From Betaproteobacteria bacterium (GTDB taxonomy: Bacteria > Pseudomonadota > Gammaproteobacteria > Burkholderiales > SG8-41), in NCBI GenBank assembly GCA_900299145.1, contig OMIN01000038.1:1-64000 (forward strand): 64,000 bases of DNA, given 5' to 3'. The position numbers and the translations under genes were made by a program. The notes beneath the pieces are model-generated. The model ran no database searches. It saw nothing but the letters and a program-made list of their open reading frames with translations, and was not told the DNA's origin. Shown here in pieces: positions 1,700 to 63,928 of the stretch. The stretch's first letter is position 1. Every line of letters begins with the position of its first letter.

Positions 1700-2668
1700 T
1701 CACCGCGCCACAATCCCAGCCGCCTTAACCACCTTCGCCCATTTCGCAATTTCCACTGCGATGAATTTCTCAAACGCCTGCGGTGTGGTGCCTTGCGGCA
1801 GCAGGCCTTCGTTGGAGAGGCGTTTTTGCATATCCGCCGTTTTGGCGATGTCGGCGACTTCGCGGTGCAGGCGGGTAACCAGTTCCAGCGGCAGTTTCGC
1901 CGGGCCGAACAGGCCCTGCCAGCTTGAGCTCTCGTAACCCGGTACGCCGGCTTCGGACACGGTTGGGATTTCCGGCAGGCTCGGCCAGCGCTCGGGCGAC
2001 GATACGCCCAGCGCTCGCAGCCGCCCGCTGCGCACCAGTGGCAGGGTGCTCGCCATGCTGCTGAAACTGAAATCGATTTCGCCGCCCACCAGCGCAGTGA
2101 GCGACGCGGGCGCGCCCTTGTAGGCGACGTGCAGAATGTCGATGCCCGCCATGGTACGAAACAATTCGCCGGTCAGGTGCGAAGCGCCCGCCGTGCCCGA
2201 AGACGCGTAGGTTACCTTGCCGGGGCGCGCCTTGGCGGCATTGATGAGGTCGCGCACGGTGCGCGCCGGGTGATTTTGGTTGACCACCATGATGTTGTAG
2301 CCGATACCGAGCAGCGAAATCGCTTTCACGTCGCGCTGCGTGTCGTAGGGCAGCTTGGCGATGAGGCTGGGGTTGATGGCGTGCGCGGTGGGCGAGAGCA
2401 GCAGCGTGTAACCATCCGGCTGCGCGTTTACCACCAGCTCGGTGGCGATGATGCCGGAGCCGCCGCCGCGATTGTCGACGACGATTTGCTGGCCCAGGCG
2501 TTCGCTCAGCCGCTGGCCGTAAGCGCGCGCCACCATGTCGGAATTGCCGCCGGCGGTTTGCGCGACGATCAGGCGTATGGGGCGAGTGGGGTAATCCGCG
2601 GCGGCGGCGTGCGTGATGGCTGCAGCCTGACCCCATAGAATTATTGTAAGTATTTGTTTTATTTGCAT
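1700..2668 (-). CDS. Bug/TctC-family periplasmic substrate-binding protein
   Basis: This 322-residue protein has a signal peptide ending around AAITHAAAA, then DYPTRPIRLIVAQTAGGNSD, the classic first strand and loop of the tripartite tricarboxylate receptor family. Such proteins bind small carboxylates or related acids in the periplasm, normally for a TctAB permease, though most Burkholderiales copies are orphans, as here. The start codon and the first residues (MQIKQILTI) are encoded by a copy of the dispersed AT-rich motif, so the N-terminus is unlike that of its relatives. It is the first of seven such genes in the window. Confidence 0.93.
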   Translation of the reverse strand: MQIKQILTIILWGQAAAITHAAAADYPTRPIRLIVAQTAGGNSDMVARAYGQRLSERLGQQIVVDNRGGGSGIIATELVVNAQPDGYTLLLSPTAHAINPSLIAKLPYDTQRDVKAISLLGIGYNIMVVNQNHPARTVRDLINAAKARPGKVTYASSGTAGASHLTGELFRTMAGIDILHVAYKGAPASLTALVGGEIDFSFSSMASTLPLVRSGRLRALGVSSPERWPSLPEIPTVSEAGVPGYESSSWQGLFGPAKLPLELVTRLHREVADIAKTADMQKRLSNEGLLPQGTTPQAFEKFIAVEIAKWAKVVKAAGIVAR

Positions 2669-2677
2669 TTTTTAAAA
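2646..2677 (-). repeat. AT-rich dispersed motif, copy 1
   Basis: On the minus strand it reads AAATAAAACAAATACTTACA with a T/A-rich lead (TTTTAAAAAATG). It contains the ATG of the Bug gene at 2668 and encodes its first residues. Confidence 0.85.
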
Positions 2678-2807
2678 TTCCGTATGCCGGACATGGCGGG
2701 AGCCGCAGCAGGATTGCGCGGGCGGCGGAATCCACTATTATGCGCTACCCGTGCCGCCCGCCGCGCGGCATGTCATTCAACTTTCTTCCCCTTCAAGGAG
2801 CTTCACC

Positions 2808-3110
2808 ATGCTGTGGATCGTAACCTGCGTCGACAACCCCAACACAGCCGCGATACGCGAATCGGTGCTGCAACCGCATCGCGACTATCTGGGCAGCCAG
2901 AAAAAAATACTTGTGCTGGCGGGCGCCACGCAATCAGACGATGGCAAAACCGCCATCGGCAGCCATTTCGTGCTGAACGTCAACAGCCGCGCCGAGGCGA
3001 AAGCGTTTTCAGACGGCGATCCATTCACGCAAAAGGGCGTCTTTGCCAGCATCACCATCACGCGCATGCGCAAGGGGCAGTGGAACCCGGAAGCGGCTGC
3101 GGACGCGTAA
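2808..3110 (+). CDS. YCII-family protein
   Basis: The 100-residue product begins MLWIVTCVDNPNTAAIRES and contains the YciI-type pattern of a ferredoxin-like fold (LQPHRDYLGS, a central IGSHFVLNVNSRAEAKAF and a DPF motif near residue 73). The start at 2808 is chosen because AAGGAG lies 8 nt upstream; longer in-frame extensions have no such site. YCII proteins are small dimeric enzymes of mostly unknown substrate, often beside catabolic genes. It is followed by an alpha/beta hydrolase in the same direction, 30 nt away, and is probably cotranscribed. Codons at 2898-2915 hold a weak match to the dispersed AT-rich motif. Confidence 0.85.
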   Translation: MLWIVTCVDNPNTAAIRESVLQPHRDYLGSQKKILVLAGATQSDDGKTAIGSHFVLNVNSRAEAKAFSDGDPFTQKGVFASITITRMRKGQWNPEAAADA

Positions 3111-3140
3111 CCATCATCCGTTCATTAAAAGGAGAGCACC

Positions 3141-3881: not shown

Positions 3882-3889
3882 TGTCGTTG

Positions 3890-4839: not shown

Positions 4840-5176
4840 GGAGAATCCTTTAAGTATCTGATTTTATTAAATATTTATTGCGCTTCTGCTGGGCAGGCTT
4901 GAGCCGTCCCTTAATTCCTGAATTTCCGAAAACAATGCCTGATTGTCGCGCCGCACCTTCTGGCGTGTCGAGCGTTTTCATTGCCGCCGCAATGCACGCG
5001 AAACGTACGAGTAAGCCCAGCATAAACATCCATCATGCGGCGCGTCCGAACGGCAGCGATGCCCGCCGGGTTGACGCCGCGCTGGCGCAAGGATTAGGCT
5101 AACCGCGCATGGCGTCACAACGCCGTCATTCCCCGTCGTGATCTTCCGCCGTTAATCTTTTTCCACGGAGCAGCCC
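4840..5176. other. Intergenic region between divergent MBL and TauD genes
   Basis: This 337-nt divergent spacer holds an AT-rich motif copy (4850-4880) next to the MBL start. The rest (about 4890-5140) is GC-rich with no convincing gene, hairpin or repeat. A CACGGAG-type ribosome-binding site precedes the TauD gene. Confidence 0.6.
4850..4880 (-). repeat. AT-rich dispersed motif, copy 2
   Basis: On the minus strand it reads AATAAAATCAGATACTTAAA, preceded by AATAAATATTT. It lies in the 5' leader of the MBL gene and contributes the AAAGGA ribosome-binding site at its end. Confidence 0.85.
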
Positions 5177-6088
5177 ATGTCCGCCGTTCTCAAGAGTGCC
5201 ACTGGCATCACCGTCAAACCCCTGCACCCGCTGTTCGTGGCTGAAGTCACAGGCGTTGATCTCACCGTGCCGGTGTCGCGTGACGATTTTCGCGTAATCT
5301 GGGATGCGTTCAATCAATACGAAGTGCTGGTGGTGCGCGATCAAAAGTTCGAGGACGACACGCAGATCGCCTTTAGCCGCAACTTCGGGCCGCTCGAAAC
5401 CATGGAGGCGCATCCGGCGAACAACTTCAAACCCGGCCACATCGCGGTGATGACCAATCTCGATGCGCAGGGCAATCTGCTGCCACTCGATGATCCGGGC
5501 ATGCTGCACCGGCTGCGCAACGAGCACTGGCACACCGACAGTTCGTTCAAGGCGATTCCGTCGTTGTGTTCCATGCTGTCCGGGCGCATCGTGCCGCCGG
5601 TGGGCGGCAACACCGATTTCGTCAGCGCGCGCGCGGCCTATGCGGCATTCCCCGACGCGCGCAAGCCGGCGCTGGAGGGTTTGGTTGCCGTGCATCGCGT
5701 GGCCAAGCCGGGAGAGGAAGACGATCCCGCCTATAACGAGGAGCAAAAGAAGCGCCTCACCGTGACGCATCCGCTGATTCGCACCAACCCGGTCAACGGC
5801 CGCAAGAATTTTTACGCCGGCGCGCACGCGCAGGCCATCGTCGGCATGCCGCGGGAGGAAGCGCGCGCGCTGATCGCTGAAATCACCGCGTTTTGCACGC
5901 AGCCGCAATTCTTCTACAGCCACCCGTGGCGCCTGCACGACCTGGTGATCTGGGACAACCGCAGCGTGCTGCATCGCGCCACCACCTTCGATAAAACCAA
6001 GTACCGCCGCAAAATGCACCGCACCACCGTGGCGGGCGAAGCGCAGGAAAGCCATTTCGCGACGATGCCTCAGCCGCAAGCCGCCTGA
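5177..6088 (+). CDS. TauD/TfdA-family Fe(II)/2-oxoglutarate dioxygenase
   Basis: The 303-residue enzyme has the iron-binding HxD in EHWHTDSSF (about residue 115), the distal histidine in NRSVLHRAT (about residue 270) and the 2-oxoglutarate-binding arginine in KMHRTTV. Family members couple oxidation of 2-oxoglutarate to hydroxylation of a small substrate such as taurine or phenoxyacetates. The next gene in the same direction is an amidohydrolase, then a second amidohydrolase and a second TauD, suggesting a catabolic series. The substrate is not deducible from the sequence. Confidence 0.93.
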   Translation: MSAVLKSATGITVKPLHPLFVAEVTGVDLTVPVSRDDFRVIWDAFNQYEVLVVRDQKFEDDTQIAFSRNFGPLETMEAHPANNFKPGHIAVMTNLDAQGNLLPLDDPGMLHRLRNEHWHTDSSFKAIPSLCSMLSGRIVPPVGGNTDFVSARAAYAAFPDARKPALEGLVAVHRVAKPGEEDDPAYNEEQKKRLTVTHPLIRTNPVNGRKNFYAGAHAQAIVGMPREEARALIAEITAFCTQPQFFYSHPWRLHDLVIWDNRSVLHRATTFDKTKYRRKMHRTTVAGEAQESHFATMPQPQAA

Positions 6089-7176: not shown

Positions 7177-7360
7177 TGTTTCGCGCAGTGGCTGTGGCGA
7201 TGGGTGCATGCGTCGCGCCGCTGCGATTGGCCGGTGAGTGCCAAAACATTTCCAGCCTTGGCGCATTCAAAGCCGAAGCTGGGTTGCGACAGCGAACAGT
7301 CGCTGATGACGAGTGGCCGGGAAATTCGTCACACGCGGAGGGCTGTCAAGGCTAATCCAG

Positions 7361-7388
7361 TAAAAATACATTAAAAACAAATAGTTAC
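7361..7388 (+). repeat. AT-rich dispersed motif, copy 3
   Basis: It reads ATTAAAAACAAATAGTTACA, with TAAAAATAC before it and TCATTTAATATC after. It sits 26 nt upstream of the amidohydrolase start at 7414; the ribosome-binding site GGGAG is outside it. Confidence 0.85.
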
Positions 7389-10441: not shown

Positions 10442-10449
10442 GCTGCAAC

Positions 10450-11643: not shown

Positions 11644-11673
11644 TTAAAAATATTATATAAATCAGATACTTAC
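11644..11673 (+). repeat. AT-rich dispersed motif, copy 4
   Basis: It reads TATATAAATCAGATACTTAC after TTAAAAATATTA. It lies between two minus-strand genes but is itself oriented on the plus strand, so its direction does not follow that of the flanking genes. Confidence 0.85.
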
Positions 11674-13859: not shown

Positions 13860-15209
13860 ATGATTCGGTCTGCAGTTCGTGGTGTGGTGGTGGGTATGCT
13901 GATGGGGTGCGCCACGGCGGGCGCGCAGCTATATGAAGGCGCGCGGCTGATTCCGGGCGACGGCGGGCCGGCCATTGAGTCGTCGTCGTTTCTGGTCGAG
14001 AAGGGGCGTATCACGCGCGTGGGAAAGGCCGGTGAAGTCACCGCGCCGGCGGGCGTGCAGCGGGTGAATCTCGCGGGTAAAACCGTGATGCCCACGATTA
14101 TCAGCAGCCACGTGCATCCGGGCTTTCAAAAGGGCCTTACCTACAGCGCGGAAAACTACACACGCGAGGTGATCCTCAACGATCTGAATCTGGCGTGGTA
14201 CTACGGCATTTCAGTGGTGATGTCGCAGGGCATCGAGCGCGGCGATCTGGCCATCCAGATACGCGACGAACAGCTCGCCGGCAAGCTGGGCGGCGCGCAG
14301 CTGCTGGTGGCCGGCCGCGGCATCGGCGCGCCCAATGCCGGGCCGGGCGCGCTTGCCTACCGGGGCATTGCGCATGAGGTCACCACCGAGGAGCAAATCC
14401 GCCAGGCGGTGCGCAGCGAAGCCACGCGCAAGGTCAACGCCATCAAAATCTGGGTCGATGATCGCGGCGGGCGCGCACCCAGCCTGACGCCGGAACTGTC
14501 CGCCGCCGCAGCCGATGAAGCGAAGAAGCACAAGCTGCGCATCAGCGCGCATGTGTATTATCACCGCGACGCCGTCGGTCTGGCCGCGGCGAAGGTGGAC
14601 AGCTTTGCGCATCTGGTGCGCGACGCGGTGATGGACGAACCGCTGCTGGTGTCGGTGATCCGCAACCGCGTGTTCGTCATGCCCAACATGGGCGGCGCCG
14701 AGCGCAACACCCACGACAAGACGCCGCCGTGGTTCGATGAGCCGTACCTCGCGGGTTTGCTCAAAGACACCGTGTCACCGGAAGTGATCGAACGCATGAA
14801 GGGCCTGTGGTCGCCGCGCGACCCCAAGGTGCTGGAGCAAACGCGCCGCATCTACGGCAACATCCATCGCAATGCCAGCCGGCTGAAAGACGCCGGTGCG
14901 CGGGTGATTCTGGGTAGCGACACCGGGTTGCCCGATCACTTTTTCGGCTACGCCGAGCAGCGTGAACTGGAGTTGATGCATTCGGCGGGGATGACCACCA
15001 TGGAAGTCATTGTTGCCGCCACCAGCCGGGGTGCGGAATATTTGCAATTGCCCGACCGCGGTACGCTCGCGCCGGGCAAGCGCGCGGATTTTCTGGTGCT
15101 GGATGCCAATCCACTTGACGACATTCGCAATACGCGGCGTATTGCGCGAATGTTTATCGGCGGCGCAGAAATCGACCGCGCTGAATTGAAGTCAAAATTA
15201 TTGAAATAA
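13860..15209 (+). CDS. Exported amidohydrolase (imidazolonepropionase/prolidase-like)
   Basis: The 449-residue protein has a signal peptide (MIRSAVRGVVVGMLMGCATAG) and metal motifs SSHVHPG, a histidine in ISAHVYYH and one in SFAHLVRD, and the catalytic aspartate in LGSDTGLPD. The ending GTLAPGKRADFLVLDANPLDDI is diagnostic of this amidohydrolase-1 branch. The start at 13860 has GGGAG 8 nt upstream. Its stop codon TAA lies inside a copy of the dispersed AT-rich motif. It converges with the SulP gene. The substrate may be a peptide or a cyclic amide. Confidence 0.92.
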   Translation: MIRSAVRGVVVGMLMGCATAGAQLYEGARLIPGDGGPAIESSSFLVEKGRITRVGKAGEVTAPAGVQRVNLAGKTVMPTIISSHVHPGFQKGLTYSAENYTREVILNDLNLAWYYGISVVMSQGIERGDLAIQIRDEQLAGKLGGAQLLVAGRGIGAPNAGPGALAYRGIAHEVTTEEQIRQAVRSEATRKVNAIKIWVDDRGGRAPSLTPELSAAAADEAKKHKLRISAHVYYHRDAVGLAAAKVDSFAHLVRDAVMDEPLLVSVIRNRVFVMPNMGGAERNTHDKTPPWFDEPYLAGLLKDTVSPEVIERMKGLWSPRDPKVLEQTRRIYGNIHRNASRLKDAGARVILGSDTGLPDHFFGYAEQRELELMHSAGMTTMEVIVAATSRGAEYLQLPDRGTLAPGKRADFLVLDANPLDDIRNTRRIARMFIGGAEIDRAELKSKLLK

Positions 15210-15222
15210 ATCAAATACTTGC
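15195..15222 (+). repeat. AT-rich dispersed motif, copy 5
   Basis: It reads TTGAAATAAATCAAATACTT then GC. It includes the TAA stop of the amidohydrolase ending at 15209 and lies in the 26-nt space between two convergent genes. Confidence 0.8.
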
Positions 15223-15235
15223 ATTTCGCCTGCCG

Positions 15236-16918: not shown

Positions 16919-16982
16919 AAAAAGTCGGAGGCTGGGCTGCGGGAAGCCGCGCGGGCGTGTTACGATCTTGAAAGCCGATGCT

Positions 16983-17000
16983 ATAACAATCTGATTCAAA
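16983..17000 (-). repeat. Degenerate AT-rich motif candidate
   Basis: The minus strand reads TTTGAATCAGATTGTTAT, differing from the AATCAGATACTTAC form at three positions in the core 14, in the divergent spacer before the cyclase gene. Its flank is less AT-rich than in the clear copies, so it may be chance. Confidence 0.35.
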
Positions 17001-18046
17001 TGGGAAATTTTGATATGCCCGGTCAAGCCGCCAAACGCTGGAAAAATCGTCCGCCTGGCTCCAACTGGGGCGAGTTTGGCGACGACGATCAACACGGCCG
17101 CATGAACTACATCACCGCCGAACGGCGGCTGGCGGCCCTGCAGGAAGTGAAAACCGGGCAGGTGTTCACGCTGTCGCATCCGCTGGACAGGCCCGGCGGC
17201 ATGGTGCTCAACGGCAATCGCAAGCCGCCGGTGTTTCATCCGGTGTTTCGCGGCAAGGAGACCTATTTCAATCTCGAATCGTCGAAAATCGATCCGCGCT
17301 TTAACGATGTCGGCTCCGACGAAGCCATCATGCTCTACATGCAGTACTCCACGCACTGGGACAGCTTCGCCCACAAGGGCACGGTGTTCGATGCCGACGG
17401 CGACGGCGTGGAAGAAAAGGTTTCCTATAACGGCTGGCGGCTCGTCGACGATGAGGGGCGCGGCCTTCATGGTGAACTCGGTGCGCGCGCGGTGTCAGTG
17501 GCGGAAATGGCGGTGACCGGCGTGCAAGGGCGTGCGGTGATGGTGGATTTGCGCCATCACTACGGAGATGCACGTACCGCGATTACGTATGAAATGCTCG
17601 AGAAAGTGATGAAGGCCGACAACGTCAGCGTGCAAAAGGGAGACATCCTCTGTCTGCACACGGGACTGGGCCAGCTAATCAGGGACGCTGATGGAAAGCT
17701 CGATACGTCGATCAAGACCGCCTGCGCGGTGCTCGATGGTTACGACAAGCCGCTGCTGGAATGGATTGCCGACAGTGGCATCGCAGCCATAGCGGCAGAC
17801 AATCTGGCGGTGGAACGCTCCTCCACGCTGGGCGCCGATCCGCGCCTGCCGCATCGGGGGCCGGCGTTGCCGCTGCATGAACATTGTCTGGTGAAGCTTG
17901 GCATCCATCTGGGCGAGCTGTGGTATCTCACCGGGCTGGCCGAATGGCTGCGGGCAAATCAGCGAACGAGTTTTTTGTTGACCGCGCCGCCACTGAGAAT
18001 GCCGGGTGCCGCCGGATCGCCGGTGACGCCTGTGGCGACGGTTTAA
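17000..18046 (+). CDS. Cyclase-family metal-dependent hydrolase
   Basis: The 348-residue protein carries the cyclase/kynurenine-formamidase signature in YSTHWDSFAHKGT (about residues 115-127) and a second metal region HHYGD. Members hydrolyse N-formyl or lactone-type bonds with zinc or manganese. No signal peptide is present. It is transcribed divergently from SulP and 54 nt ahead of a malic enzyme gene in the same direction. The start at 17000 has GGTCTT-poor context and no clear Shine-Dalgarno; the in-frame ATG at 17015 (MPGQAAKRW) is an alternative. Confidence 0.88.
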   Translation: MGNFDMPGQAAKRWKNRPPGSNWGEFGDDDQHGRMNYITAERRLAALQEVKTGQVFTLSHPLDRPGGMVLNGNRKPPVFHPVFRGKETYFNLESSKIDPRFNDVGSDEAIMLYMQYSTHWDSFAHKGTVFDADGDGVEEKVSYNGWRLVDDEGRGLHGELGARAVSVAEMAVTGVQGRAVMVDLRHHYGDARTAITYEMLEKVMKADNVSVQKGDILCLHTGLGQLIRDADGKLDTSIKTACAVLDGYDKPLLEWIADSGIAAIAADNLAVERSSTLGADPRLPHRGPALPLHEHCLVKLGIHLGELWYLTGLAEWLRANQRTSFLLTAPPLRMPGAAGSPVTPVATV

Positions 18047-19751: not shown

Positions 19752-19782
19752 TTAAAAATAGTTAATAAAAATAGATAGTTAC
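19752..19782 (+). repeat. AT-rich dispersed motif, copy 6
   Basis: It reads AATAAAAATAGATAGTTACG with TTAAAAATAGTT before it. It lies between malic enzyme and the NMT1-like gene, reaching to within 32 nt of the earliest usable start of the latter. It shares the ATAGTTAC variant core with copy 3. Confidence 0.85.
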
Positions 19783-22873: not shown

Positions 22874-23214
22874 ACATCCCAACAGGTTGTTCCTGGCGGG
22901 CTTCGCCAGTTTGTCATGGCGAATTCGTGTAAGACATGCGTGGTGTCCGGTGGCAATATCGCCGATAGCCCACCGGCGGTATTTGCGACACGGGTCAAGG
23001 CCGAGACTGCGACCAAGGGCAATTTACGCATGGCTTTCAGTGCCCACGAAAATTAGTCAATAAAAACAGATACTTATGTAACATCTCACGGCATCCGCCC
23101 CGTCCACTTTGGGCGAAGCCGCAGTTCGCGGCATTTGACCGGTACTCACCGCCCGCACACACCTTGACGGGCTTTGTAAGATAGCGCCGAAGCAGAGCGA
23201 GAAAGGCGCCCGGT
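22874..23214. other. Intergenic region upstream of Bug gene
   Basis: This 341-nt space holds AT-rich motif copy 7 at 23049-23077. I see no credible gene; the 5' part is moderately GC-rich, and no clear hairpin terminator follows the cytochrome gene. Confidence 0.6.
23049..23077 (+). repeat. AT-rich dispersed motif, copy 7
   Basis: It reads CAATAAAAACAGATACTTAT after AAAATTAGT. It lies about 140 nt upstream of the Bug gene at 23215, the most distant from a gene of any clear copy. Confidence 0.85.
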
Positions 23215-28367: not shown

Positions 28368-29345
28368 CTACTGTAACGGAATGCCCGCCGCCTTGGCTAC
28401 CTTGCGGTAGCGCTCGATCTCATTGGGCAGCAGATTGGCAAGTTGTTGCGGGGTGGCGATCCACGGCTCGGCGCTTTCCTGCTCAAGAAAGCGCTTGAGT
28501 TCCGGCGCGTTCAACAGTTTGTTGATGGTGCTGTTGAGAAAATTGAGGCGCTCGGCGGAAATGCCCGCGGGCGCGAAGAGTGCCCACCACAATTCGTATT
28601 CATAACCCGGTACGCCCGATTGGGCGAGCGAGGGCAGATTCGGCAGCAGTGGCGAAGGCTTGGTACCGCTCATGCCGAGCGCGCGCACGCGGCCCGCGCG
28701 CAATTGCGGGTTCACGGCAGCGGAACTCGCGATCACCACTTCCACTTCGCCAGATGCCACCGCCGTCATCGCCAGCGAAATGCCCTTGTACGGCACATGA
28801 ATCATTTTTGTGCCCGCCGCCAGATCAAACAGCGCGCCGGAAAAATGATTGTTGCCGCCGATGCCCGACGAGCCGTAATTCAGTTTGCCCGGATTTTTCT
28901 TTGCCAGTTCGATGAATTCTTTGACGTTCTTCACCGGCAGCGAGGGGTGTACCACCATTACCAGCGACGATTTGCCGATGCCCGCCACCGGCACGATAGC
29001 GCGCGCCGGGTCGAACGGTAGCTTGGCGCGCACCGCCGCCGTACCGGTGTACGACGACGTATGCCCCAGCAGCGTGTGGCCGTCGGGCTCAAGCTTGGTG
29101 AAAATCTCCGTGCCGATCATGCCCGATGCGCCGGGCCGGTTGTCGACCACGATATTGCGGTTCAATGCCTTGGAAAGCTCCGCCATCACCGCACGCGTCA
29201 TCACGTCGATGGAGCCGCCTGGCGCGTAGGGCACGATGGCTTGCATGTTGCGTGTGGGGAACTGTTGGGCGCGGACGTGTGTTACGCCGCTCGCGGCAAG
29301 GACAAGGGTTGCCGCGAAGGAATATATATAAGTATCTGATTTCAT
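28368..29345 (-). CDS. Bug/TctC-family periplasmic substrate-binding protein
   Basis: This 325-residue receptor has QQFPTRNMQAIVPYAPGGSID at the start of the mature part and VVDNRPGASGMIGTEIFTKLEPDG in the ligand loop. The start codon and first residues (MKSDTYIYS) come from a copy of the AT-rich motif, giving a signal peptide with a polar, tyrosine-containing beginning before AATLVLAASGVTHVRA. No other usable start is seen. The cupin gene follows. Confidence 0.92.
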   Translation of the reverse strand: MKSDTYIYSFAATLVLAASGVTHVRAQQFPTRNMQAIVPYAPGGSIDVMTRAVMAELSKALNRNIVVDNRPGASGMIGTEIFTKLEPDGHTLLGHTSSYTGTAAVRAKLPFDPARAIVPVAGIGKSSLVMVVHPSLPVKNVKEFIELAKKNPGKLNYGSSGIGGNNHFSGALFDLAAGTKMIHVPYKGISLAMTAVASGEVEVVIASSAAVNPQLRAGRVRALGMSGTKPSPLLPNLPSLAQSGVPGYEYELWWALFAPAGISAERLNFLNSTINKLLNAPELKRFLEQESAEPWIATPQQLANLLPNEIERYRKVAKAAGIPLQ

Positions 29346-29354
29346 TTATATTTC
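29328..29354 (-). repeat. AT-rich dispersed motif, copy 8
   Basis: The minus strand reads ATATAAATGAAATCAGATAC then TTAT. It contains the ATG of the Bug gene at 29345 and encodes its first residues. Confidence 0.85.
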
Positions 29355-29437
29355 TTGATGAGGCTGCGCGAAGGTAAAGTCTTCACGGGCGCGTATTGTG
29401 ACAGGTACGCTCTGCCACGCAAGTGCCGAACGTCTGT

Positions 29438-30376
29438 CTACGGAATCTCCCGGTAAATCGCCGTGGCCGCCGCGTGGATGCGCAGCGGCTGATCCCAGTC
29501 TGGATATTCGCCGGCGAATTCCGTGCGCAGCGTCGTGGCGGTTTCGTCGGATGACTTTCCCTGCTTTTTCATTTCCGCCACGCGTCCGCGCAGTGCGGTG
29601 AGAAAGCCGCGGTAAGCGCCGATCATCGAGGCATCGCTCATGCCGTAATGCGCGCCGATGACCTGTTTCGCGCGCAATGCGTCCAGTGCATCAAGGCTCG
29701 TCAGCCAACTGCCAAGCCGCGACTGCGGCGTGGCAAATGCGGGAAACAGTTTGTGCATGGCAAGGTCGCCGGAAAACAGCACGCTGTCGCCTTCGACAAA
29801 CACAGCGGTGTCGCCGCGCGTGTGTGCAGGGCCCAGCCGCAGCAACTTCACGCGCACGCCGCCCAAATCGAGCAGCTTTTCCTTGTCGAAAATTTCCGAA
29901 GGCTCGCGAAATTTCGCGCCCTGCAACTGGTCGCGCAAATGCGTGCCTCGCGCGGCGAACACGGCCACCCATTTAAAACCCATCTCATCGACATCTTCCT
30001 GCTGCGCCGCCGCGCGCAACAGCTTTGCGCTGGCCGGAAAGGCCAGATCGCCGGTGGTGTGCTCCGGATGAAAGTGCGTGTTGATGATGTATAAGTCTTT
30101 GTTTTTACTAATTTTTTAAACTTCTCGCAAAACCGCTTCGCCACTTTTCAGGCCCATGCCTGGGTCGACCACGAGCGTAGCCCGGCTGCCGACGATGATG
30201 CCGACGTTGGGCACCATGCCGACTTTTTCATCGGGAATCAGATATACGTGTGGCGAAATTTTTTGCGTTTTGCCTTCCTTGACGACAGGCAGGACCGGCG
30301 CTTGCCCGTGGGCGACAAGGCTTGCGCAACAGAGCAGGGCTGCAAACCAGTGGTGTTTCGTGCGTGACTCGTTCAT
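29438..30376 (-). pseudogene. Exported MBL-fold hydrolase interrupted by one in-frame TAA
   Basis: Read through, this encodes about 312 residues: signal peptide (TKHHWFAALLCCASLVAHGQ), then ISPHVYLIPDEKVGMVPNVG, the metal motif NTHFHPEHTTG, a second site GPAHTRGDTAV and FSGDLAMHKLFP, as in exported quinoprotein-associated MBL hydrolases. After LKSGEAVLREV a TAA (30116-30118) interrupts the frame, which then resumes unchanged as KISKNKDLYIINTHFH. The stop and the eight following codons coincide with an AT-rich motif copy, and no bases appear added or lost. GGAGG precedes the ATG at 30376. Either inactive, read through, or restarted internally. Confidence 0.85.
30091..30120 (-). repeat. AT-rich dispersed motif, copy 9, inside the MBL gene
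   Basis: The minus strand reads TTAGTAAAAACAAAGACTTA with TTTAAAAAA before it. It lies in frame inside the MBL gene and its leading TTTAAAAAA supplies the interrupting TAA. Confidence 0.8.
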
Positions 30377-36933: not shown

Positions 36934-37236
36934 GACTCAATACAGTGTTGAAATGGCATTGAGCTTAAGGGAGAAACCGCTGCAACGGAACGCAGGGTCA
37001 GTGTGTGCGAAGAAAGACCGTGCTGGCGCTTTTGCGTGTGAACGCTTCACAATCGTTGTTTCTTAAGTATTTGTTTTATAATACTTTTTTTATAACGCTA
37101 AGCGAAAAGCCGCTGGCGTCGACACGGCGCAAAAGGCCAGCGGGATGCGGCCGCTACTAGATCTGAAAATCCACGAGATAAAGCCGGATTACTGTGGAGT
37201 CCGGCTAAACACCCGCAGTGGCAATGAATGCGATGG
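36934..37236. other. Intergenic region between dehydrogenase and Bug gene
   Basis: It contains AT-rich motif copy 11 (37063-37094) and a 7-bp inverted pair AGCCGGA / TCCGGCT (about 37181-37205), which could be a weak terminator for the Bug gene but has no T-run. Nothing else is supported. Confidence 0.55.
37063..37094 (-). repeat. AT-rich dispersed motif, copy 11
   Basis: The minus strand reads TATAAAACAAATACTTAAGA after ATAAAAAAAGTAT. It lies in the leader region of the dehydrogenase, 130 nt from its ATG. Confidence 0.85.
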
Positions 37237-38268
37237 TCAATCAATCCGCGCGCCTGATGCCCTGACCACCTTGGACCATTTTGCGACGTCTGCCACCAAA
37301 AGTTTGTGAAACTCCTCGGGTGTAGTGAGCAGCACATCAGCGCCCTGCGCTTTCAAAAAATCCTGCAGGTCTTTGGTTTTAAGCACGTCGTTGGCATCGG
37401 TATTGACCTTGCGCACGATGCGCATGTCCGTGCCCGCGGGCGCGAGGATGCCCCACCATGGGTTCACGTCGAAGCCTGCAAGGTTACCCAGGCCGGATTC
37501 GGCAATGGTTGGCACGGTGGGCGCGACAGACACGCGCTGCGCGCTGGTGACGGCGATTACGCGCATGCGGCCGCTGGCAACGTGCTGGATGACCGAGGGC
37601 ACGCTGGTGAATGCAAGATCAACCTGGCCCGCCATCACATCCAGTATCGCGGGCGCAACGCCCTTGTAGGGAATGTGGCGCATGCGGATGCCGGCATCGA
37701 CCTTAAGCATTTCGCCCAGCAAGTGGTTGACTGAACCGTTGCCCGACGATGCGTAGGACAACAGTTCGGGCTTGGCGCGCGCGAGTGCGATCAGTTCCTT
37801 CAACGTTTTCGCTGGCACACTGTTGTTGACGATGAGCAAAAACGGCGTGACGGCTATGGTCGCCACCGTTTGAAAATCCTTCACCGAATCAAACGCGAGC
37901 TTCGGGTAAAGGCTTTGATTCACTGCCTGTGAACCCGCGTAAGTGACCAGCAGCGTGTAGCCATCCGCAGGCGATTTGGCCACCAGCTCCGTACCGAGAT
38001 TACCGCCCGCGCCGAAACGGTTTTCCACCAGCACGTTGCGCCCCCAGCGGTCTGACAGCCGTTGGCCCATGGCGCGCGCGAAAACATCTGTCGCGCCGCC
38101 CGGCACTTGGGGCACCACAAAGCGCACCGGTTTGGTGGGGTAATCTTGCGCGGCTGAACTCACGCAAAGCGTTCCACTCACGACGGTGAGCAGCGCTTGC
38201 GACACGATGCGCCATCCGGCCGGAAATAGTGAACTTTGGAACTGGTGTAAGTAATTGATTTTATTCAT
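37237..38268 (-). CDS. Bug/TctC-family periplasmic substrate-binding protein
   Basis: This 343-residue receptor has DYPTKPVRFVVPQVPGGATD and VENRFGAGGNLGTELVAKSPADG. The N-terminus MNKINYLHQFQSSLFPAGW precedes a second, more usual signal segment (RIVSQALLTVVSGTLCVSSAA); the first nine residues come from an AT-rich motif copy. It is the third Bug gene whose start lies inside that motif. Confidence 0.92.
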   Translation of the reverse strand: MNKINYLHQFQSSLFPAGWRIVSQALLTVVSGTLCVSSAAQDYPTKPVRFVVPQVPGGATDVFARAMGQRLSDRWGRNVLVENRFGAGGNLGTELVAKSPADGYTLLVTYAGSQAVNQSLYPKLAFDSVKDFQTVATIAVTPFLLIVNNSVPAKTLKELIALARAKPELLSYASSGNGSVNHLLGEMLKVDAGIRMRHIPYKGVAPAILDVMAGQVDLAFTSVPSVIQHVASGRMRVIAVTSAQRVSVAPTVPTIAESGLGNLAGFDVNPWWGILAPAGTDMRIVRKVNTDANDVLKTKDLQDFLKAQGADVLLTTPEEFHKLLVADVAKWSKVVRASGARID

Positions 38269-38278
38269 TTAATTTTGA
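38247..38278 (-). repeat. AT-rich dispersed motif, copy 12
   Basis: The minus strand reads GAATAAAATCAATTACTTAC after AAAATTAAAT. It contains the ATG of the Bug gene at 38268. Confidence 0.85.
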
Positions 38279-43543: not shown

Positions 43544-45846
43544 ATGAGCGCCGTGCTGATCACGCAGTGTTTGCAACAGGACTTTGTGGCGCCCGTGGGC
43601 CGCTATGACCAGCTGCCCAATCTGCTTCATATCGGCTTTGAAGAGGCGCGCCGGCTGATGGGGGAGGTGCCCGCCGAAGGCCCTGTGGCGCGCGTCATGC
43701 GCTGGGCGTACCAGCAGCCCGATGCACGGCTGCAACTCATCCACATCCGCGACTGGCACGATGCCGGCGACCCCGAGCAAAAAAGACATTTCGAGCAGTT
43801 TGGCGAGCATTGCGTGAAAGACACGCCCGGTGCGGCGTTTGTATTCGAGGCGCCCGCGCGCGCAGGCAAGCTGGTGACGTTGATCGACTCGCCGGGGCTG
43901 AATGATTTTCTTGGCACGTCGCTGGCATCCGCATTGGCGGTGCCGGCACGAATTGGTGTCATGGGCGTGTGGACGGAAGCCAAGGTGAGTTTTCTCGCCT
44001 ACGAGTTGCGCACGCGTTTTCCCACCGCCGAGATCGCAGTGTGCTCGGCGCTGACCGCCAGCGCCAGCCGCAACGGGCACTTCCTTGCGCTGACGCAAAT
44101 GCAGAAGCTGCTGGGCGTGCGCATCATCGATTCGGTTGGCGGCTTTGTCGATTTTCTCGGGGGCAAGCTGGATGAGGCGCCGCTGCCGGTGTCAACGGTG
44201 GCGGGCGCGCAGCCGCAGTTTGAATTCACCGGCAAGGTTGCGCCCAGCGATGTGGACCGGCAGTTGCTCGCGTACCTGTTCCGTGACTGCACCACTGTGC
44301 GCGCGAAGGCGCTGTCCGGCGGGTTTTCCGGCAATCTGGTGCTGGCCTGCGACAGCACGGATCGTGAGCGGCGACGCCAGGTGCCGCATGTGGTGAAGAT
44401 CGGCGAGCGCGATCCCATCGGCCGCGAGCGTGCGGCCTTCGAGCAGATCGAGCAGGTGCTGGGCAACTCCGCGCCGCGTATCACAGACTTTGCCGACTGG
44501 GGCGGGCGTGGCGCGATCAAGTATCGCTATGCCGCCATGGGCGAGGGCGTGGCCAGCACGTTTCAGCGTCTGTATATGGAGGGGCTGCCGCAGTCGGAAG
44601 TCGAGCGCATTCTCGATACCGTGTTCGGCGAGCAACTGGCGCGGCTCTACAGCGCACCGGAACGCGAGCGTGCGGATTTGTTCGATTATTACGCGTTCAG
44701 TGCGAAGTGGGCGCCACACGTACGCGAGCGTGTTGAGGCGTTGTTGGGTGCGCCCGCCCATGGGGAATCGCTCATTTTGTCCGGCAATGTGACCACGCCC
44801 AATGTTTGCCGCTTCTACGACAGCGTGCTCGACAGTTTGCCCCGTCAGCGGTCGCGTTCGTGGTGGTTCGCGCATGTGCATGGCGACCTAAACGGCGCCA
44901 ACATCATTCTCGATGCGCACCAGAACGTGTGGCTGATTGATTTTTCCATACGCATCGTGGCCATATCCTCAAGGACCTGGCCAAGCTGGAAAACGATGTG
45001 CTCTACATCTGGACACCAGTGAATGGCGCGGCGGAGTTGGCAGAGGCTGTCCGCGTGACCGAAGGGCTGCTGGCGGTGCGTGACCTCGCCGCGGAATTGC
45101 CGCATGCCGCCGATGCCGGCATCACCACGCCCGTGTTCGTGCGTGCGTGGGAGACGGTGCGCAAGTTGCGTTCGTATTACCCGGCGTTGCTGCAAAGCGA
45201 CCGCGACCCGCTGCAACTGCTGATTGCGCAACTGCGCTACGCCGTGCATACGCTGGGGTTTGATGAATGCAACCACTGGCAGAAATTGTGGGCGCTACAT
45301 ACTGCCGGGTACGCGGCCGCCATTATTGAGCAGCGTTTGACGCGCACGGGGCCGCTGCGCGTGGATTGGCTTAATCCAGCATTGCCCAATCTGGGCATCA
45401 CCCTCCTGCCCGGGCGACGTGACTATGGACGCGATCTCGCCACCGATATCGCCAGCCTCAAGGCAGCGGGTGTCACGCATGTGCTGTCGCTCATCACCGA
45501 CGATGAACTCGCGGCGCGTGGCGTGGAGGGGCTGGGCGCGGCCCTGCGTGAGGCGGGCCTCGTGCAGCGGCAGGATGCGTTGCTCGATCAGCGTGCCGCT
45601 ACCATTGAGCAGATGGACAGGATTGCGGAATGGCTCGACGCGACGCTGAAGCAGGGCGCACGCGTCGCGATTCACTGTATGGCGGGTCTGGGTCGTTCCG
45701 GCATGGTGGCAGCGAGTTATTTGACGCGTTCCGGCATGCGCGCGGATGCGACGATTGCGCTGGTGCGCGAAAAGCGTTCACCGCGTGCGGTGGAGACGGC
45801 GGTGCAGGAGGAGTTTGTGCACAAGTACGCAGCATATAGAGAATAA
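43544..45846 (+). pseudogene. Cysteine-hydrolase fold / phosphotransferase kinase / dual-specificity phosphatase fusion, frameshifted
   Basis: Domain 1 (about residues 1-215) is isochorismatase-like, with LITQCLQQDF, but the catalytic cysteine segment reads GVWTEAKV instead of a TDxCV form. Domain 2 (about 230-600) is an aminoglycoside/choline-phosphotransferase-like kinase with HGDLNGANIILD and a metal-site LIDF. Domain 3 (about 610-767) is a dual-specificity phosphatase with IHCMAGLGRSG. After LIDF the frame breaks at a run of five T (about 44940-44944); one added T restores HTHRGHILKDLAKLENDVLYI and continuity to 45846. It is either a real frameshift or a sequencing error in about 767 codons. 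The kinase resembles those tied to MoxR-vWA ternary systems. Confidence 0.85.
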
Positions 45847-45870
45847 AAGTATTTAAAAACAAATACTTAC
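45843..45870 (+). repeat. AT-rich dispersed motif, copy 13
   Basis: It reads TATTTAAAAACAAATACTTA then C, after TAAAAG. Its first bases are the TAA stop of the phosphatase-domain frame, and its end is followed directly by the GGGAGAGG ribosome-binding site of the MoxR gene. Confidence 0.9.
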
Positions 45871-50984: not shown

Positions 50985-51013
50985 GTAAGTAATTGTTTTT
51001 AAATATATTTTAG
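50985..51013 (-). repeat. AT-rich dispersed motif, copy 14
   Basis: The minus strand reads TTTAAAAACAATTACTTACG after AAATATA. It lies between the coiled-coil gene and the adenylase gene, antiparallel to both. Confidence 0.85.
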
Positions 51014-52470: not shown

Positions 52471-53193
52471 TTGAATACATCGCTGCGCAACCCTCCGCTT
52501 GACCACCCTTACGCGGGACGGGCACACCGCGTCTACGTCGCACTCACCAATCACTGCAATCGCGCCTGCCCGTGGTGCAGCACCTATTCTTCACCGGCGC
52601 GCGGCACGTGGATTACGTGGGCGCAGTTGCAGGCGAGCTTGCCCGTAGCAGGGAATTTTGATGTGCAACTCGAAGGCGGTGAACCGACGCTACATCCCGA
52701 ATTTTGGGATTTCATCGCTCGGCTGCGTGGCAACCCGCGTTGTGGCTGTTTGGTACTGTGCACCAATGGTGTGGCGTTGCCGCGCCACGCGGGCAAATTG
52801 CACGATTGGCTCGCCCGGCTCGGCGCGCCTTTGATAATAAAACTTTCAATAAATCAATATCTTATGGATCACGACCCTGGCTTGCTGCAATTGGCCGCCG
52901 GGGTGCAAAGCGCGATACAGACGTTGGGCGGCGAGCGCGAAGTGATCTACAACGTGCGCCTGCGCAGAGGCAACGACGGCGACGACAGGGCCGAGATCGA
53001 TGCCGTGCACGAGGCCGGCCTCATGCCGCGCGCCAATGTGTTTTATTTACAGCGCTACGGACTTGCGAGCAACGAAGCGGCTTGGGACGCGCCACATCTG
53101 GCGGGTGAAAACTTCCGGCTGGTAAATCCCGACGGACGCGTGTTCGGCCCCGACTTGATTGCACGTTCAGAATACATGGGCGGTCTCGCGTGA
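52471..53193 (+). CDS. Radical SAM protein, short
   Basis: The 240-residue enzyme has the cluster motif NHCNRACPWCST (CX3CX2C at about residues 30-37) and the SAM-binding GGEPTLHPEF. Start TTG at 52471, one base after the adenylase stop. Residues about 122-132 (IIKLSINQYLM) are encoded by an AT-rich motif copy in frame. It lacks auxiliary-cluster cysteines. Confidence 0.9.
   Translation: MNTSLRNPPLDHPYAGRAHRVYVALTNHCNRACPWCSTYSSPARGTWITWAQLQASLPVAGNFDVQLEGGEPTLHPEFWDFIARLRGNPRCGCLVLCTNGVALPRHAGKLHDWLARLGAPLIIKLSINQYLMDHDPGLLQLAAGVQSAIQTLGGEREVIYNVRLRRGNDGDDRAEIDAVHEAGLMPRANVFYLQRYGLASNEAAWDAPHLAGENFRLVNPDGRVFGPDLIARSEYMGGLA
52834..52865 (+). repeat. AT-rich dispersed motif, copy 15, in frame in radical-SAM gene
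   Basis: It reads TCAATAAATCAATATCTTAT after ATAATAAAACTT. Codons are strikingly A/T-rich compared with the gene around them, yet the frame stays open. Confidence 0.75.
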
Positions 53194-56270: not shown

Positions 56271-56297
56271 TTCTGCTGACTGGTCCCCGCTCTGACC

Positions 56298-59200
56298 ATG
56301 AATCCTTCCCGCCTCTTTATCCTGCGCCCTGTGGCCACCTCATTGTTGATGGTGGCCATCCTGCTGTCGGGCATCATCGCCTATCGATTGCTGCCGATTT
56401 CAGCGCTGCCGCAGGTGGATTACCCGACGATACAGGTTGTCACGTTTTACCCGGGCGCGAGCCCCGAGGTGATCGCGTCTTCAATCACCGCACCGCTGGA
56501 ACGGCAGTTCGGGCAGATGCCGGGCCTGCGGCAGATGTCATCCACCAGTTCGGGTGGCGCCTCGGTGGTGACCCTGCAGTTTTCGCTGGAACTGGAACTC
56601 GATTCCGCCGAGCAAAGTGTGCAGGCGTCGATCAACGCGGCGGCAAATCTACTGCCGACCGATTTGCCCGCGCCGCCGGTCTACAGCAAGGTAAACCCGG
56701 CCGATGCGCCAATATTGACACTGGGCATCACCTCGAAGACGCTTCCCATGACCACCGTGCAGAACCTCGCCGACACACGCGTGGCGCAGAAGATTTCGCA
56801 GGTCACTGGCGTGGGGCTGGTGACGCTGTCCGGCGGTAACCGGCCTGCCGTGCGCGTGCAGACCAATCCGTCGGCGCTGGCGGCCAATGGTCTGAGTCTG
56901 GAAGATGTGCGCCAGGCGGTGGCCGCGGCCAACGTGAATCAGGCCAAGGGCAGCTTCGATGGCCCGGAGCGCGCCTACACCATTGACGCCAACGACCAGC
57001 TGAAATCCGCCGACGAATACCGCAAGGTGGTGGTGGCGTATCGCAATGGCGCACCGGTGTATCTGACGGACGTGGCGGAGGTCATCGACGCGCCGGAAAA
57101 CATGCGGCTCGCGGCGTGGATGAACAACACGCCCGCCATTATCATGAACATTCAGCGTCAGCCCGGCGCCAATGTGATCGACGTGGTGAACCGCATCAAG
57201 GAACTGTTGCCGCAGTTGCAGGGCGCGTTGCCCGCCGCGGTGGATGTGGCCATTCTGACCGACCGCACAGTGACCATCCGCGCCTCGGTGCACGATGTGC
57301 AGATTGAGCTGCTGCTCGCCGTTGTGCTGGTGGTGCTGGTGATCTTTGTGTTCCTGCGCAACGTTCCGGCCACCCTCATCCCCGGTGTGGCGGTGCCGCT
57401 GTCGCTGGTGGGCACCTTCGGCGTGATGTATCTCGCCGGCTTTTCCATCAACAACCTCACGCTGATGGCGTTGACGATAGCCACCGGCTTTGTGGTGGAC
57501 GACGCCATTGTGATGATCGAAAACATCGCGCGCTATGTCGAGGAGGGCGAGTCGCCGCTGGCGGCTGCGCTGAAAGGCTCGCAGCAGATCGGCTTCACCA
57601 TCATCTCGCTCACGTTTTCGCTGATCGCAGTGTTGATCCCGTTGCTGTTTATGGGCGATGTGGTCGGGCGATTGTTCCGTGAATTCGCCATTACGCTGGC
57701 GGTGTCGATACTGATTTCCGCTGTCGTGTCGCTGACGCTGACGCCGATGATGTGCGCGCGCCTGTTGCGCCACACGCCGGAGCACGCGCACGGCCGACTC
57801 TACAAAATAACCGGTGCGTGGTTTGACGCGATGATTCGTTTCTATGGCGCGACGTTGCGCTGGGTGCTGGACCGCCAGTTCCTGACACTGCTCGTGGCCA
57901 TTGCCACGCTGGCACTGGCGGTGGTGATGTATGTATTTGTTTCCAAAGGATTTTTTCCGATTCAAGATACGGGCGTGATTCAGGGCATCACGGATGCTGA
58001 ACAGACCGTGTCGTTCGGTGCGATGGGCGAACGGCAGCAGCGGCTGGCGCAGGTGATCCTTGAGGATCCCGCGGTGGAAAGCCTGTCCTCGTTTATCGGT
58101 GTCGATGGCCAGAATGCAACATTGAACAGCGGGCGCATGCTCATCAACCTGAAGCCGCATGGCCAGCGCCCGCACGTGCTGACGGTGATCAACCGCCTGA
58201 AGGAAGCGACGGCGAAACTCGAGGGCATCACGCTCTATATGCAGCCCGTACAGGACCTGACCATTGAGGACAAGGTGAGCCGCACGCAGTTCCAGTTCAC
58301 GCTCGATACCGCGAAGCTCGACGAGCTCGGCGTGTGGGTTCCGCGCGTGGTGGATCGGCTGAGGCAGTTGCGCGAAATCACCGACGTGACGAGCGATTTG
58401 CAAAATCAGGGTTTGCAGGCGTATCTGGAAATCGACCGCGACACAGCCGCGCGCCTCGGCGTGACACCAGCGTCGATCAATACCGCGCTCTACAACGCCT
58501 TTGGGCAGCGGCTGATTTCCACCATCTTTACGCAAACCAGCCAGTACCGCGTGGTGCTGGAGGTGAAGCCGGAATACCGTATCGGCCCACAGGCGCTGTC
58601 TGAAATCTATGTGCCCGGTGCGGGTGGTTCGCAGGTGCGGTTGTCCACTGTCACCCGGCTGCTGGAAAAGCCTGCCACACTGGCGATCAACCATCTGGGC
58701 AATTTTCCGTCGTCGACGATCTCGTTCAACCTTGCGCCGGGCGTGGCGCTGGGCGACGCCGTGCAGGCCATTGAAGCTGCGCAGAAAGAAATCGGCATGC
58801 CCGCGAGCATCCGCACCAGTTTCCAAGGGGCGGCGCTCGCCTTTCGTGCGTCGCTCACCAACACGCTGTGGCTCATCATTGCCGCCATTGTCACCATGTA
58901 CATCGTCCTCGGCGTGCTGTACGAAAGCTACATTCACCCGGTAACGATACTCTCCACGCTGCCTTCGGCGGGCGTGGGTGCACTGCTGGCGCTGATCCTT
59001 GCGCGTATGGATCTGGGCATCATCGGCGTGATCGGCATCATTCTGCTGATTGGCATCGTCAAGAAAAACGCCATCATGATGATCGACTTTGCGCTGGATG
59101 CCGAGCGCAACGAGGGCAAGTCACCGCGCGAGGCGATCTACCAGGCCTGCTTGCTGCGCTTCCGCCCGATCATGATGACGACCGCTTGCGCGTTGCTGGG

Positions 59201-59405
59201 GGCGTTGCCGCTGATGCTGTCCACCGGCGTGGGCGCGGAATTGCGTCAACCGCTGGGCGTCACCATGGTGGGCGGTCTGATCGTGAGTCAGGTGCTGACG
59301 TTGTACACGACGCCGGTGATTTACCTCGCGTTTGACAGTCTCGCGCGGCGCTATCGGGCGAAACATCCCAGTCCGGTGGAAGAAGACATGGCTGGGACGG
59401 GTTAG
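56298..59405 (+). CDS. mdtB: RND efflux permease, MdtB-like
   Basis: The 1035-residue pump has the RND layout: [14 protein letters not shown] start, porter repeats, TM4 pair in [13 protein letters not shown] (two aspartates), [19 protein letters not shown] and the lysine in [13 protein letters not shown]. It acts as hetero-trimer with the following permease, driven by protons. Residues [15 protein letters not shown] are written in A/T-rich codons coinciding with an AT-rich motif copy (57929-57956). Confidence 0.95.
57929..57956 (-). repeat. AT-rich dispersed motif, copy 16, in frame in mdtB
   Basis: The minus strand reads GGAAACAAATACATACATCA after AAAAAATCCTTT. The core differs from ATACTTAC at one base. 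The paralogous site in the next gene encodes a similar peptide with GC-rich codons. Confidence 0.6.
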
Positions 59406-59408
59406 CGC

Positions 59409-62400: not shown

Positions 62401-62501
62401 TCTATACAACGCCAGTGGTTTACCTCTACATGGATCGTTTTCGGTTGTGGACCTTGAAACTGCGAGGCAAGTCGGCGCACCCGGCGGCGCTATCGCAATG
62501 A
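59409..62501 (+). CDS. mdtC: RND efflux permease, MdtC-like
   Basis: The 1030-residue pump has [14 protein letters not shown] at the start, [14 protein letters not shown] in TM4, [16 protein letters not shown] in TM10 and the porter repeats. It lies 3 nt after its partner, as in mdtABC. MdtBC pumps export bile-salt-like, flavonoid or drug compounds in known cases. Confidence 0.95.
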
Positions 62502-63910
62502 AGACAATGAAGAATTGCGCGAATGTATTGATGTGGTTGGCTGTCGCGTCGGTTATGGCGTCCTGCGCCTTTGGCCCGGATTACCGCCGCCCACAAACCG
62601 TCACGCCGCCGGCGTACAAGGAAAACAAAGACTGGAAAATTGCCGAGCCGAGAGACAACGTGACGCGCGGCAAATGGTGGGAGGTTTTCGCCGATCCGCA
62701 ATTGAACGTGCTGGCGGACAAAGTCACCGCGTCGAATCTGAGTCTGCGCGTGGCGGAAGCGAACTACCGCCGCGCGCAGGCGCTGGTGCAATCGGCGCGT
62801 GCGGCATTGTTGCCCACGGTGTCGGCGAGTGCCGGCGTGACACGCGCGGGCTCGGGGACGCGCGCTGCAGCCACTACTTATGACATCGGCGCCAATGCCG
62901 GGTGGGATGCCGACCTGTGGGGCCGCGTGCGCCGCAATATCGAATCGAATCAGGCGGGTGCGGACGCGAGTGCGGCGGATTTCGAATCCGCGCGCCTCTC
63001 CGTGCAATCGGAACTGGTGATCAACTACTTGCAATTGCGCGTGCTTGATACGCAAAAGAAACTGCTCGATGAAACCGCGGAAGCCTTCGCCAAGTCGCTG
63101 CAGCTAACCCAAAACCGCTACAAGGCCGGGTTGGCGGGGCGCGTGGACGTGGCGCAGGCCGAGGCGCAGTTAAAGAGCACGCAGGCGCAATCCATCGACA
63201 CGGGTGTTCAGCGCGCGCAACTGGAGCACGCCATTGCAGCGCTGCTGGGCGTGGCGCCTGCCGAGCTTGGCTTGCCGCCGGCGCTGGTAAAGGCCGCCGT
63301 GCCCGCGATACCGGCTGGCTTACCCTCCGAATTGCTGGAACGCCGGCCCGACATTGCCGCCGCCGAGCGGCGCGTGGCAGCGGCCAATGCGCAAATCGGC
63401 GTGGCCAAGGCGGCGTTTTATCCGTCGCTTACACTCTCGGGCAGCGCCGGATTGCAGAGCACAAGCTGGTCGCGATGGTTAAGTGCGCCCAGTCGCGTGT
63501 GGTCGCTGGGGCCGGACCTCGCACAGTCCATTTTCGATGGCGGCCAGCGCAAGGCGCTTACCGATCAGGCGATAGCGTCGTATGACGCGAGCGTCGCCAC
63601 CTATCGCCAAACCGTGCTCGGTGCGTTCCAGGATGTCGAAGACGCGCTTGCCGCGCTGCGCATCCTGGAGCAGGAAGCGAAGGTGCAAAACGACGCGGTG
63701 ATCGCCGCACGCCAATCGGTCGAACTCACGGTGAACCAATACAAAGCCTGCATAGTCAGCTACCTCAATGTGGTCACCGTGCAGACCACACTGCTCAACA
63801 ACGAACGCACGGCGCTGTCGCTGTTGGGCCGGCGGTTGACGGCGGCAGCGCAACTGGTCAAAGCGCTGGGCGGGGGGTGGACGTTGGAAAATGCCTCTGA
63901 AAAAAAGTAA
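62498..63910 (+). CDS. NodT-family outer-membrane efflux lipoprotein
   Basis: The 470-residue channel is an OprM/NodT-type TolC-like factor: lipobox [28 protein letters not shown], the helical barrel regions [20 protein letters not shown] and [20 protein letters not shown], and [15 protein letters not shown]. It is coupled to mdtC by ATGA. It completes the tripartite pump. Its stop TAA lies in an AT-rich motif copy. Confidence 0.94.
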
Positions 63911-63928
63911 ATTAAAACAAATACTTAC
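63908..63928 (+). repeat. AT-rich dispersed motif, copy 17
   Basis: It reads AAATTAAAACAAATACTTAC and begins with the TAA stop of the outer-membrane factor. Confidence 0.85.

Follow-up and report, generated by a model that had tools for sequence, protein, structure and literature searches.

Dispersed copies of a motif that fits the IHF binding site in a Betaproteobacteria genome, and their possible role as a chromosome-wide scaffold

IHF requires four bases between the CAR and TTR parts of its binding site, without reading the letters of these bases. The REP-associated IHF sites of E. coli are dispersed, intergenic, and carried on longer repeats. The published IHF consensus is WATCARNNNNTTR, with the in vivo variants WAWCAAC and WWCARS, i.e. 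W at the third base, as given in excerpts of PMC8407004. An upstream A-tract increases IHF affinity and bending; the protein is a strong DNA bender that pins plectonemes and, in simulations, can bridge DNA into topological domains (excerpts of PMC9519438). For the Correia elements of Neisseria, an extract of PMC2649163 gives, for gonococci, more than 120 copies, of which only 17 per genome have a perfect IHF site, and, for meningococci, about 250. IHF sites are thus already known, as are IHF-bearing repeats such as these elements (PMC2649163). In this study, a dispersed AT-rich motif was analysed in a stretch of 64,000 nucleotides (the window; contig OMIN01000038.1, assembly GCA_900299145.1) from a Betaproteobacteria bacterium, and in its whole genome and relatives; the set of copies in a genome is called the array. 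The motif fits an IHF binding site, composed of an A-tract, 8 bp, and WAWCAR-NNNN-TTR, and is very probably recognized by IHF.

A preliminary description of the window listed 16 copies of the motif, on both strands and about one per 4 kb. A matrix match was found at all 16 positions; 14 of them scored at least 37.5 bits, and those at 52834 and 57929 were weak. The matrix was trained on a 459-kb sample of the same genome (the window and stretches of contigs C15, C98, C99, and C60). The inclusion of window DNA is offset by the plain consensus with at most 3 mismatches, which by itself matched 8 times in the window and never in 100 dinucleotide shuffles. The copies are not confined to the window. 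Across the 5.5-Mb assembly, WAAAWCARATACTTAC with at most 2 mismatches matched 638 times on the forward and 633 times on the reverse strand, a nearly equal distribution of 1271 matches; whereas the reversed WAAAWCARATACTTAC, used as control, matched 4 and 5 times (9 in total). The comparison with expectation that had been proposed thus gave a clear excess. In the 459-kb sample, 130 matrix sites were found, compared with 6 when the same DNA was read backwards, and the commonest 14-mers were pieces of the motif. An open-ended first refinement of the matrix, which drifted to a strand-symmetric AT-rich sequence (315 matches, 544 in the control), was rejected. In a k-mer comparison with the reversed sequence, GATC-like and codon words prevailed, and little was gained from it.

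The logo showed a conserved element of about 30 bp, not about 20 bp as described before, with an A-tract located 8 bp upstream of an IHF-like core. The A-rich tract lies at -13 to -7, and is followed by eight bases with one conserved T and by the core WAWCARNNNNTTR, which usually reads A-A-W-C-A-R, four bases (ATAC or ATAG in most copies), T-T-A, and finally C or T. The logo has no inverted ends, in agreement with the earlier view that the motif is not palindromic. The strong sites were defined as the 112 scoring at least 30 bits in the 459-kb sample. Ninety-nine of these fit the core WAWCARNNNNTTR at the expected place, and none of 5000 column shuffles reached this fit. The core also agrees with the IHF consensus save for the third base. 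An A-tract, as expected for an IHF site, is present: 108 of the 112 have at least five A/T in the six positions -12 to -7, and 77 have four consecutive A within -14 to -7. The 8-bp distance from A-tract to core is, we assume, the same as in lambda H'.

The spacer between the two halves of the core has a fixed length of four bases and largely free letters. In the sampled genome, a length of four gave 146 matches, compared with 45 in the reversed control. At all other lengths between 0 and 8 the counts were near or below the control, except at 0 (32 against 15). Throughout G000, the genome of the window, WAAAWCAR-N4-TTR occurred 1370 times against 29 reversed, and the N5 form 28 times against 26. 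In the g8 genomes G020, G041, and G042, the N4 form gave 175, 118, and 213 matches against 17, 17, and 18, respectively, with a slight excess of the N5 form (34 against 6, 18 against 7, and 19 against 10). The g8 spacers are varied, with ATAC or ATAG in only 8 of the 54 G041 matches listed; for 20 g8 loci chosen by hand from the listed G041 and G042 matches, only spacers and flanks are informative. ATAC was the commonest among many spacers in the g7 sample (5 of 19 sites) and the g6 sample (6 of 21), where again only spacers and flanks are informative, as the sites were chosen by the core pattern. The site at 11660 was aligned with only the six relatives that have a site there: the seven species have the spacers ATAC, ATAT, ATAC, ATGC, ATAC, TAAC, and ATAG, and CA(A/G) and TTA are constant. 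The spacer letters drift between genera and at this orthologous site, as IHF predicts.

Gene boundaries were taken from a home-made open reading frame caller; the start-codon distances are therefore approximate, and the null model of spacing depends on them. Of the 130 sites, 95 fall between called genes, and others touch gene ends. Among 255 gaps of at least 40 bp, 161 have no site, 93 have one, and 1 has three (94 occupied). The occupancy is almost independent of gap length, ranging from 32 to 45% among the size classes, and 14 gaps with two or more sites are expected from a Poisson distribution, as against the 1 observed. Convergent gaps (13/36) are occupied as often as divergent (14/53) and tandem (67/165) ones; gaps of only 22-50 bp in tandem gene pairs also carry sites, and some copies sit just upstream of start codons. 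Orientation is independent of gene direction, as was stated before (36 same and 33 opposite in tandem gaps), and neither a fixed orientation nor a fixed place relative to gene starts, as expected for promoter elements, was found. The sites also tended slightly to lie on the strand of most local genes (78 vs 52).

The density is one copy per 3.5-4 kb on average, close to the first estimate. The strong sites have a mean spacing of 4.1 kb and a longest interval of 13.6 kb. Their coefficient of variation is 0.638, compared with 0.849 for random gene boundaries, and none of 2000 randomizations was as low. Intervals below 1 kb are depleted (3.7% vs 12.5% expected, P 0.001); those below 0.5 kb show no difference (1.9% vs 1.7%). 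Similar values were obtained for G018 (35 sites, 0.666 vs 0.888, P 0.0165) and for g7 (19 sites, 0.448 vs 0.847, 0/2000). The occupied gaps were 18/94 in G018 and 16/102 in g7, none doubly, and the expected doubles (1.5 and 1.1) are too few for judging the one-per-gap rule there.

Twelve of the 112 strong sites lie more than 60 bp inside called genes, and one of these is in era, which is essential in well-studied bacteria. Insertion against an empty site was traced for this copy only. Twenty-four aligned era genes (G000 and 23 relatives) have no indel at the place of the motif. The motif scores are 42.1 in G000, 40.6 in G008, 31.1 in G006, 27.9 in G001, 24.0 in G002, and 20.8 in G007; the same NKNQIL peptide is encoded by other codons in G003 (-6.2), G004 (-2.3), and G012 (1.3). 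Because there is no indel and the peptide is kept through other codons, the era copy arose by substitution (codon changes), not by insertion. In the genes with such deep sites (e.g. C60:41283-42189 and C98:36572-38189), several coding copies encode NKNKYL-like peptides; they use TTA, which makes up 2.2% of the leucine codons in the sampled genes.

Intergenic copies vary among relatives. For the site at 2659, besides two relatives with the copy in place (Table 1), others hold a copy elsewhere between the same flanking genes, either strong (G006 46.9, G001 39.6, and G011 33.1 bits) or weaker (G010 27.4, G013 24.5, and G012 22.5 bits). The copy at 4862 is present in two of three fetched relatives. 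At 11660, a site was found in 6 of the 10 relatives with the adjoining gene aligned, and none in G003, G012, G013, and G005; the G005 gene, with 66% identity, may be a paralog.

The family survey covered 74 genomes. The array is strong in 13 of the 14 g1 genomes, the single g6 genome, and all 21 g7 genomes (with the ATAC form in 52 to 277 copies), and all three g8 genomes have it with a free spacer. It is weak in G014 (110 vs 25 with the generic pattern), and the remaining genomes of the family are low. Counting was extended to 399 genomes of the order, where it stopped; among the 385 outside the family, no comparably strong array was found. The highest count there was in G443 (459 vs 149 in the control), and the largest ratios above 100 matches were in G259 (133 vs 17) and G415 (176 vs 33). 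Among the G259 matches listed, some are spaced at about 295 bp, in the manner of a tandem array. An exact 17-mer scan of named genomes gave at least 104 stretches; the 80 listed include Burkholderiales and Betaproteobacteria drafts as well as single matches in unrelated phyla. The latter were taken as chance in a very large collection, and the scan gives no measure of density. G009 (L303, L315-L319, L374), a member of the g1 genus, may be a natural loss case of the array. Its Era is 74% identical to that of G000, and the GC content is 48% in the sampled 100 kb; it has no array, no ComEC was detected, and an extra divergent IhfB-like gene was seen.

The genome of the window encodes both IhfA (L162) and IhfB (L263), as IHF recognition would require. 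IhfB shares IEIRGFGSF with solved IHF (2iif/2iie), and the neighbour of IhfA is presumably pheT. Members of PF00216 were searched: 12 of the 14 g1 genomes have two genes, G010 none, and G009 three; the 21 g7 genomes have two (14 genomes), one (4), none (1), or three (2). A tree of 95 proteins separates IhfA, IhfB, and HU; built from 96 fetched loci and 102 columns, it has many unresolved forks and serves for this sorting only. The 19 HU rows belong to g2 (12), g3 (5), g5 (1), and G043 of g4 (1). No HU was found among the classified proteins of array genomes, part of which the tree covered. The third gene of G009 is a divergent IhfB-like protein whose place is unsure. Of 51 genomes outside the family, 50 have at least 3 matches with E up to 1 and G095 has two; this threshold is loose (G019 has 4 matches vs 2 at 0.001; G000 has 2 at both). 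In G014 of g2, all rows are IhfA or IhfB, and no other genome of its genus has as many IHF-like sites, which hints at a second case of an HU-less genome with IHF sites. ComEC was found in 20 of 21 genomes, with or without the array, and is absent in G009.

Taken together, these comparisons make it fairly probable that the copies are high-affinity IHF sites that form a chromosome-wide scaffold. The IhfA-IhfB heterodimer would bind each copy and bend the DNA sharply there. Point mutation would create the sites, and selection would keep about one per 3.5-4 kb, on either strand, and almost never two per gap. The fixed bends together would pin supercoils or bound small topological domains. Strong sites that occur once per gap and are blind to gene direction suit such an architectural job better than gene-by-gene regulation. 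We infer the binding of IHF at the sites and its effect from the sequences; given IHF recognition, a scaffold role is quite likely. The IHF array might also take over the compaction work done by HU in most relatives, which is less probable than the scaffold role itself. It is a tentative and rather doubtful further step that a lineage losing HU rebuilt its nucleoid on IHF, with a genome-wide ladder of strong sites as a sequence-encoded bend and supercoil scaffold. This reading is less likely because the HU comparison is softer and the long intervals are undepleted.

Several observations weigh against the scaffold proposal or its link to HU. At the third consensus position, A (71%) prevails over T (28%), so that the strict T of WATCARNNNNTTR is found only in part. 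The spacer of the genome itself is biased beyond the need of IHF (ATAC 49 and ATAG 29 of 112). Intervals above 8 kb are not significantly depleted among the strong sites (8.4% vs 10.8%, P 0.17), and for this reason the evenness is mostly avoidance of close neighbours. G009 has no array though IhfA and IhfB are present. Some of the genomes with the array are incomplete drafts; no family match at all was obtained for G010 and G049, and the third family matches of G047 and G064 were left outside the sorting into IhfA, IhfB, and HU. Moreover, g4 (G016, G024, and G044) and g9 have neither an HU row nor an array, and G095, with two family matches, has no array. Since such genomes exist, HU loss alone fails as the cause of the array, and the link between the two is suggestive only.

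The abundance of the motif on both strands could also be explained by a DNA-uptake signal, for which a strong excess on both strands is expected. The competence machinery would then prefer fragments with the motif, and biased uptake with recombination would accumulate the copies. Uptake signals, too, spread by substitution and form dialects, and that of the Pasteurellaceae likewise has a core plus AT tracts; the origin of the era copy by point substitution and the dialect-like differences between genera are compatible with this, as is the presence of ComEC in the array genomes searched and its absence in G009. However, ComEC is equally present in the array-free g2, g3, g4, and g9, and its distribution gives no verdict for or against uptake. 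The motif fits an IHF site down to the spacer length and the free spacer letters, and a nearly length-independent occupancy with almost never more than one site per gap is unexpected from an uptake drive. The best-known uptake signals differ from the density of one per 3.5-4 kb and the few strong sites deep in genes, and an uptake signal, though still a main competing explanation, is considered unlikely. About as improbable are ordinary IHF regulatory sites that act on neighbouring promoters and are merely numerous. Some copies do lie just upstream of start codons, and IHF is a known regulator (excerpts of PMC8407004). Nevertheless, a promoter-type site is disfavoured because convergent gaps are as occupied as divergent ones and the orientation is free; the sites in short tandem-gene gaps and the rarity of close neighbours also speak against it.

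Another clade-specific DNA-binding protein, whose site resembles that of IHF, might account for the preference of the genome for ATAC/ATAG in the spacer. However, the g8 genomes have free spacer letters and the g6 and g7 samples a variety of spacers, and the fit to IHF extends to both halves, the spacer length, and the A-tract, which makes such a protein very unlikely. A miniature mobile or REP-like element spread by transposition is hardly conceivable. It would agree with many similar short copies whose numbers vary between species, yet the logo shows neither inverted ends nor a longer conserved body, and at the era copy a miniature element is ruled out by the absent indel in 24 genes and the codon changes. 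Among the interpretations in the preliminary description, which is partly supported, that of a nucleoid-protein or chromosome-architecture site thus gained ground by the fit to an IHF site; the miniature element and the promoter-type regulatory site lost it.

The matches in the window are given in Table 1. They include a weak seventeenth match (16983..17011) absent from the first list. The match at 57929 may be chance because it lies inside a long called gene, presumably of an RND pump. Rfam and ARAGORN scans of the window gave no match. The genes at about 7530-8480 and 5206-6070, which may encode Bug-type solute receptors, belong to a large paralogous family with about 67-75% DNA identity across the genus genomes. 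Other repeated 14-mers in the 459-kb sample are CCCTTGTACGGCAC (9 copies), CACGTGCCGTACAA (8), and ATGGCTACACGCTG (7), perhaps the REP families mentioned in the preliminary description. In 100 kb sampled from G020 (L310-L314), 9-mers of a ACCAATCACC-like repeat were counted about 30 times.

Table 1. Predicted IHF-like sites in the window, with ends calculated from the matrix-match centres
Feature	Position	Strand	Score and remarks
IHF-like site, predicted	2646..2674	-	43.8 bits; same place in G008, G007
IHF-like site, predicted	4850..4878	-	43.7 bits; kept in G008, G007, not in G013
IHF-like site, predicted	7360..7388	+	41.4 bits
IHF-like site, predicted	11645..11673	+	41.5 bits; adjoins start of called gene 10449-11634 (-)
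IHF-like site, predicted, overlaps gene end	15194..15222	+	38.1 bits
Weak IHF-like site inside called gene 15235-17179	16983..17011	-	27.5 bits; possibly chance
IHF-like site, predicted	19754..19782	+	40.7 bits
IHF-like site, predicted	23049..23077	+	45.8 bits
IHF-like site, predicted	29328..29356	-	37.5 bits
IHF-like site, predicted	30091..30119	-	38.3 bits
IHF-like site, predicted	37063..37091	-	40.0 bits
IHF-like site at called gene start, predicted	38247..38275	-	42.4 bits
IHF-like site, predicted, fills 38-bp tandem-gene gap	45842..45870	+	41.5 bits
IHF-like site, predicted	50985..51013	-	39.6 bits
Weak IHF-like site	52837..52865	+	27.7 bits
Weak match deep within called gene 56297-59405	57929..57957	-	28.0 bits
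IHF-like site, predicted	63900..63928	+	47.0 bits

No description of a naked array of more than 1000 near-consensus IHF sites was found in the open-access literature, judged mainly by titles; among the matches listed, none of the open-access papers containing the motif letters was about the motif by its title. In the usual view, nucleoid proteins act on chromosome organisation via sites that are weak and scattered. The present genome seems to specify the positions of the benders; close pairs are avoided, and an occupied gap has one site. The array-free relatives allow a comparison of whether supercoil domains depend on discrete bends, and whether HU loss favours the spread of IHF sites.

The enterobacterial IHF sites (lambda H', oriC, and others) share with the present motif the consensus WATCARNNNNTTR, the upstream A-tract, and the two-subunit IHF. 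Unlike these, the motif has W in place of T at the third base and more than 1000 near-consensus copies, in which close pairs are rare and two per gap are almost never found. The uptake sequences of Neisseriaceae and Pasteurellaceae likewise have high copy numbers, strand symmetry, genus dialects, and a core with AT tracts; whereas the present copies fit an IHF site, are mostly intergenic, and almost never occur twice in a gap. The Correia elements of Neisseria also provide dispersed intergenic IHF sites, but within longer repeats. In the present genome, it is the naked site that recurs, and where traced, it evolved by substitution.

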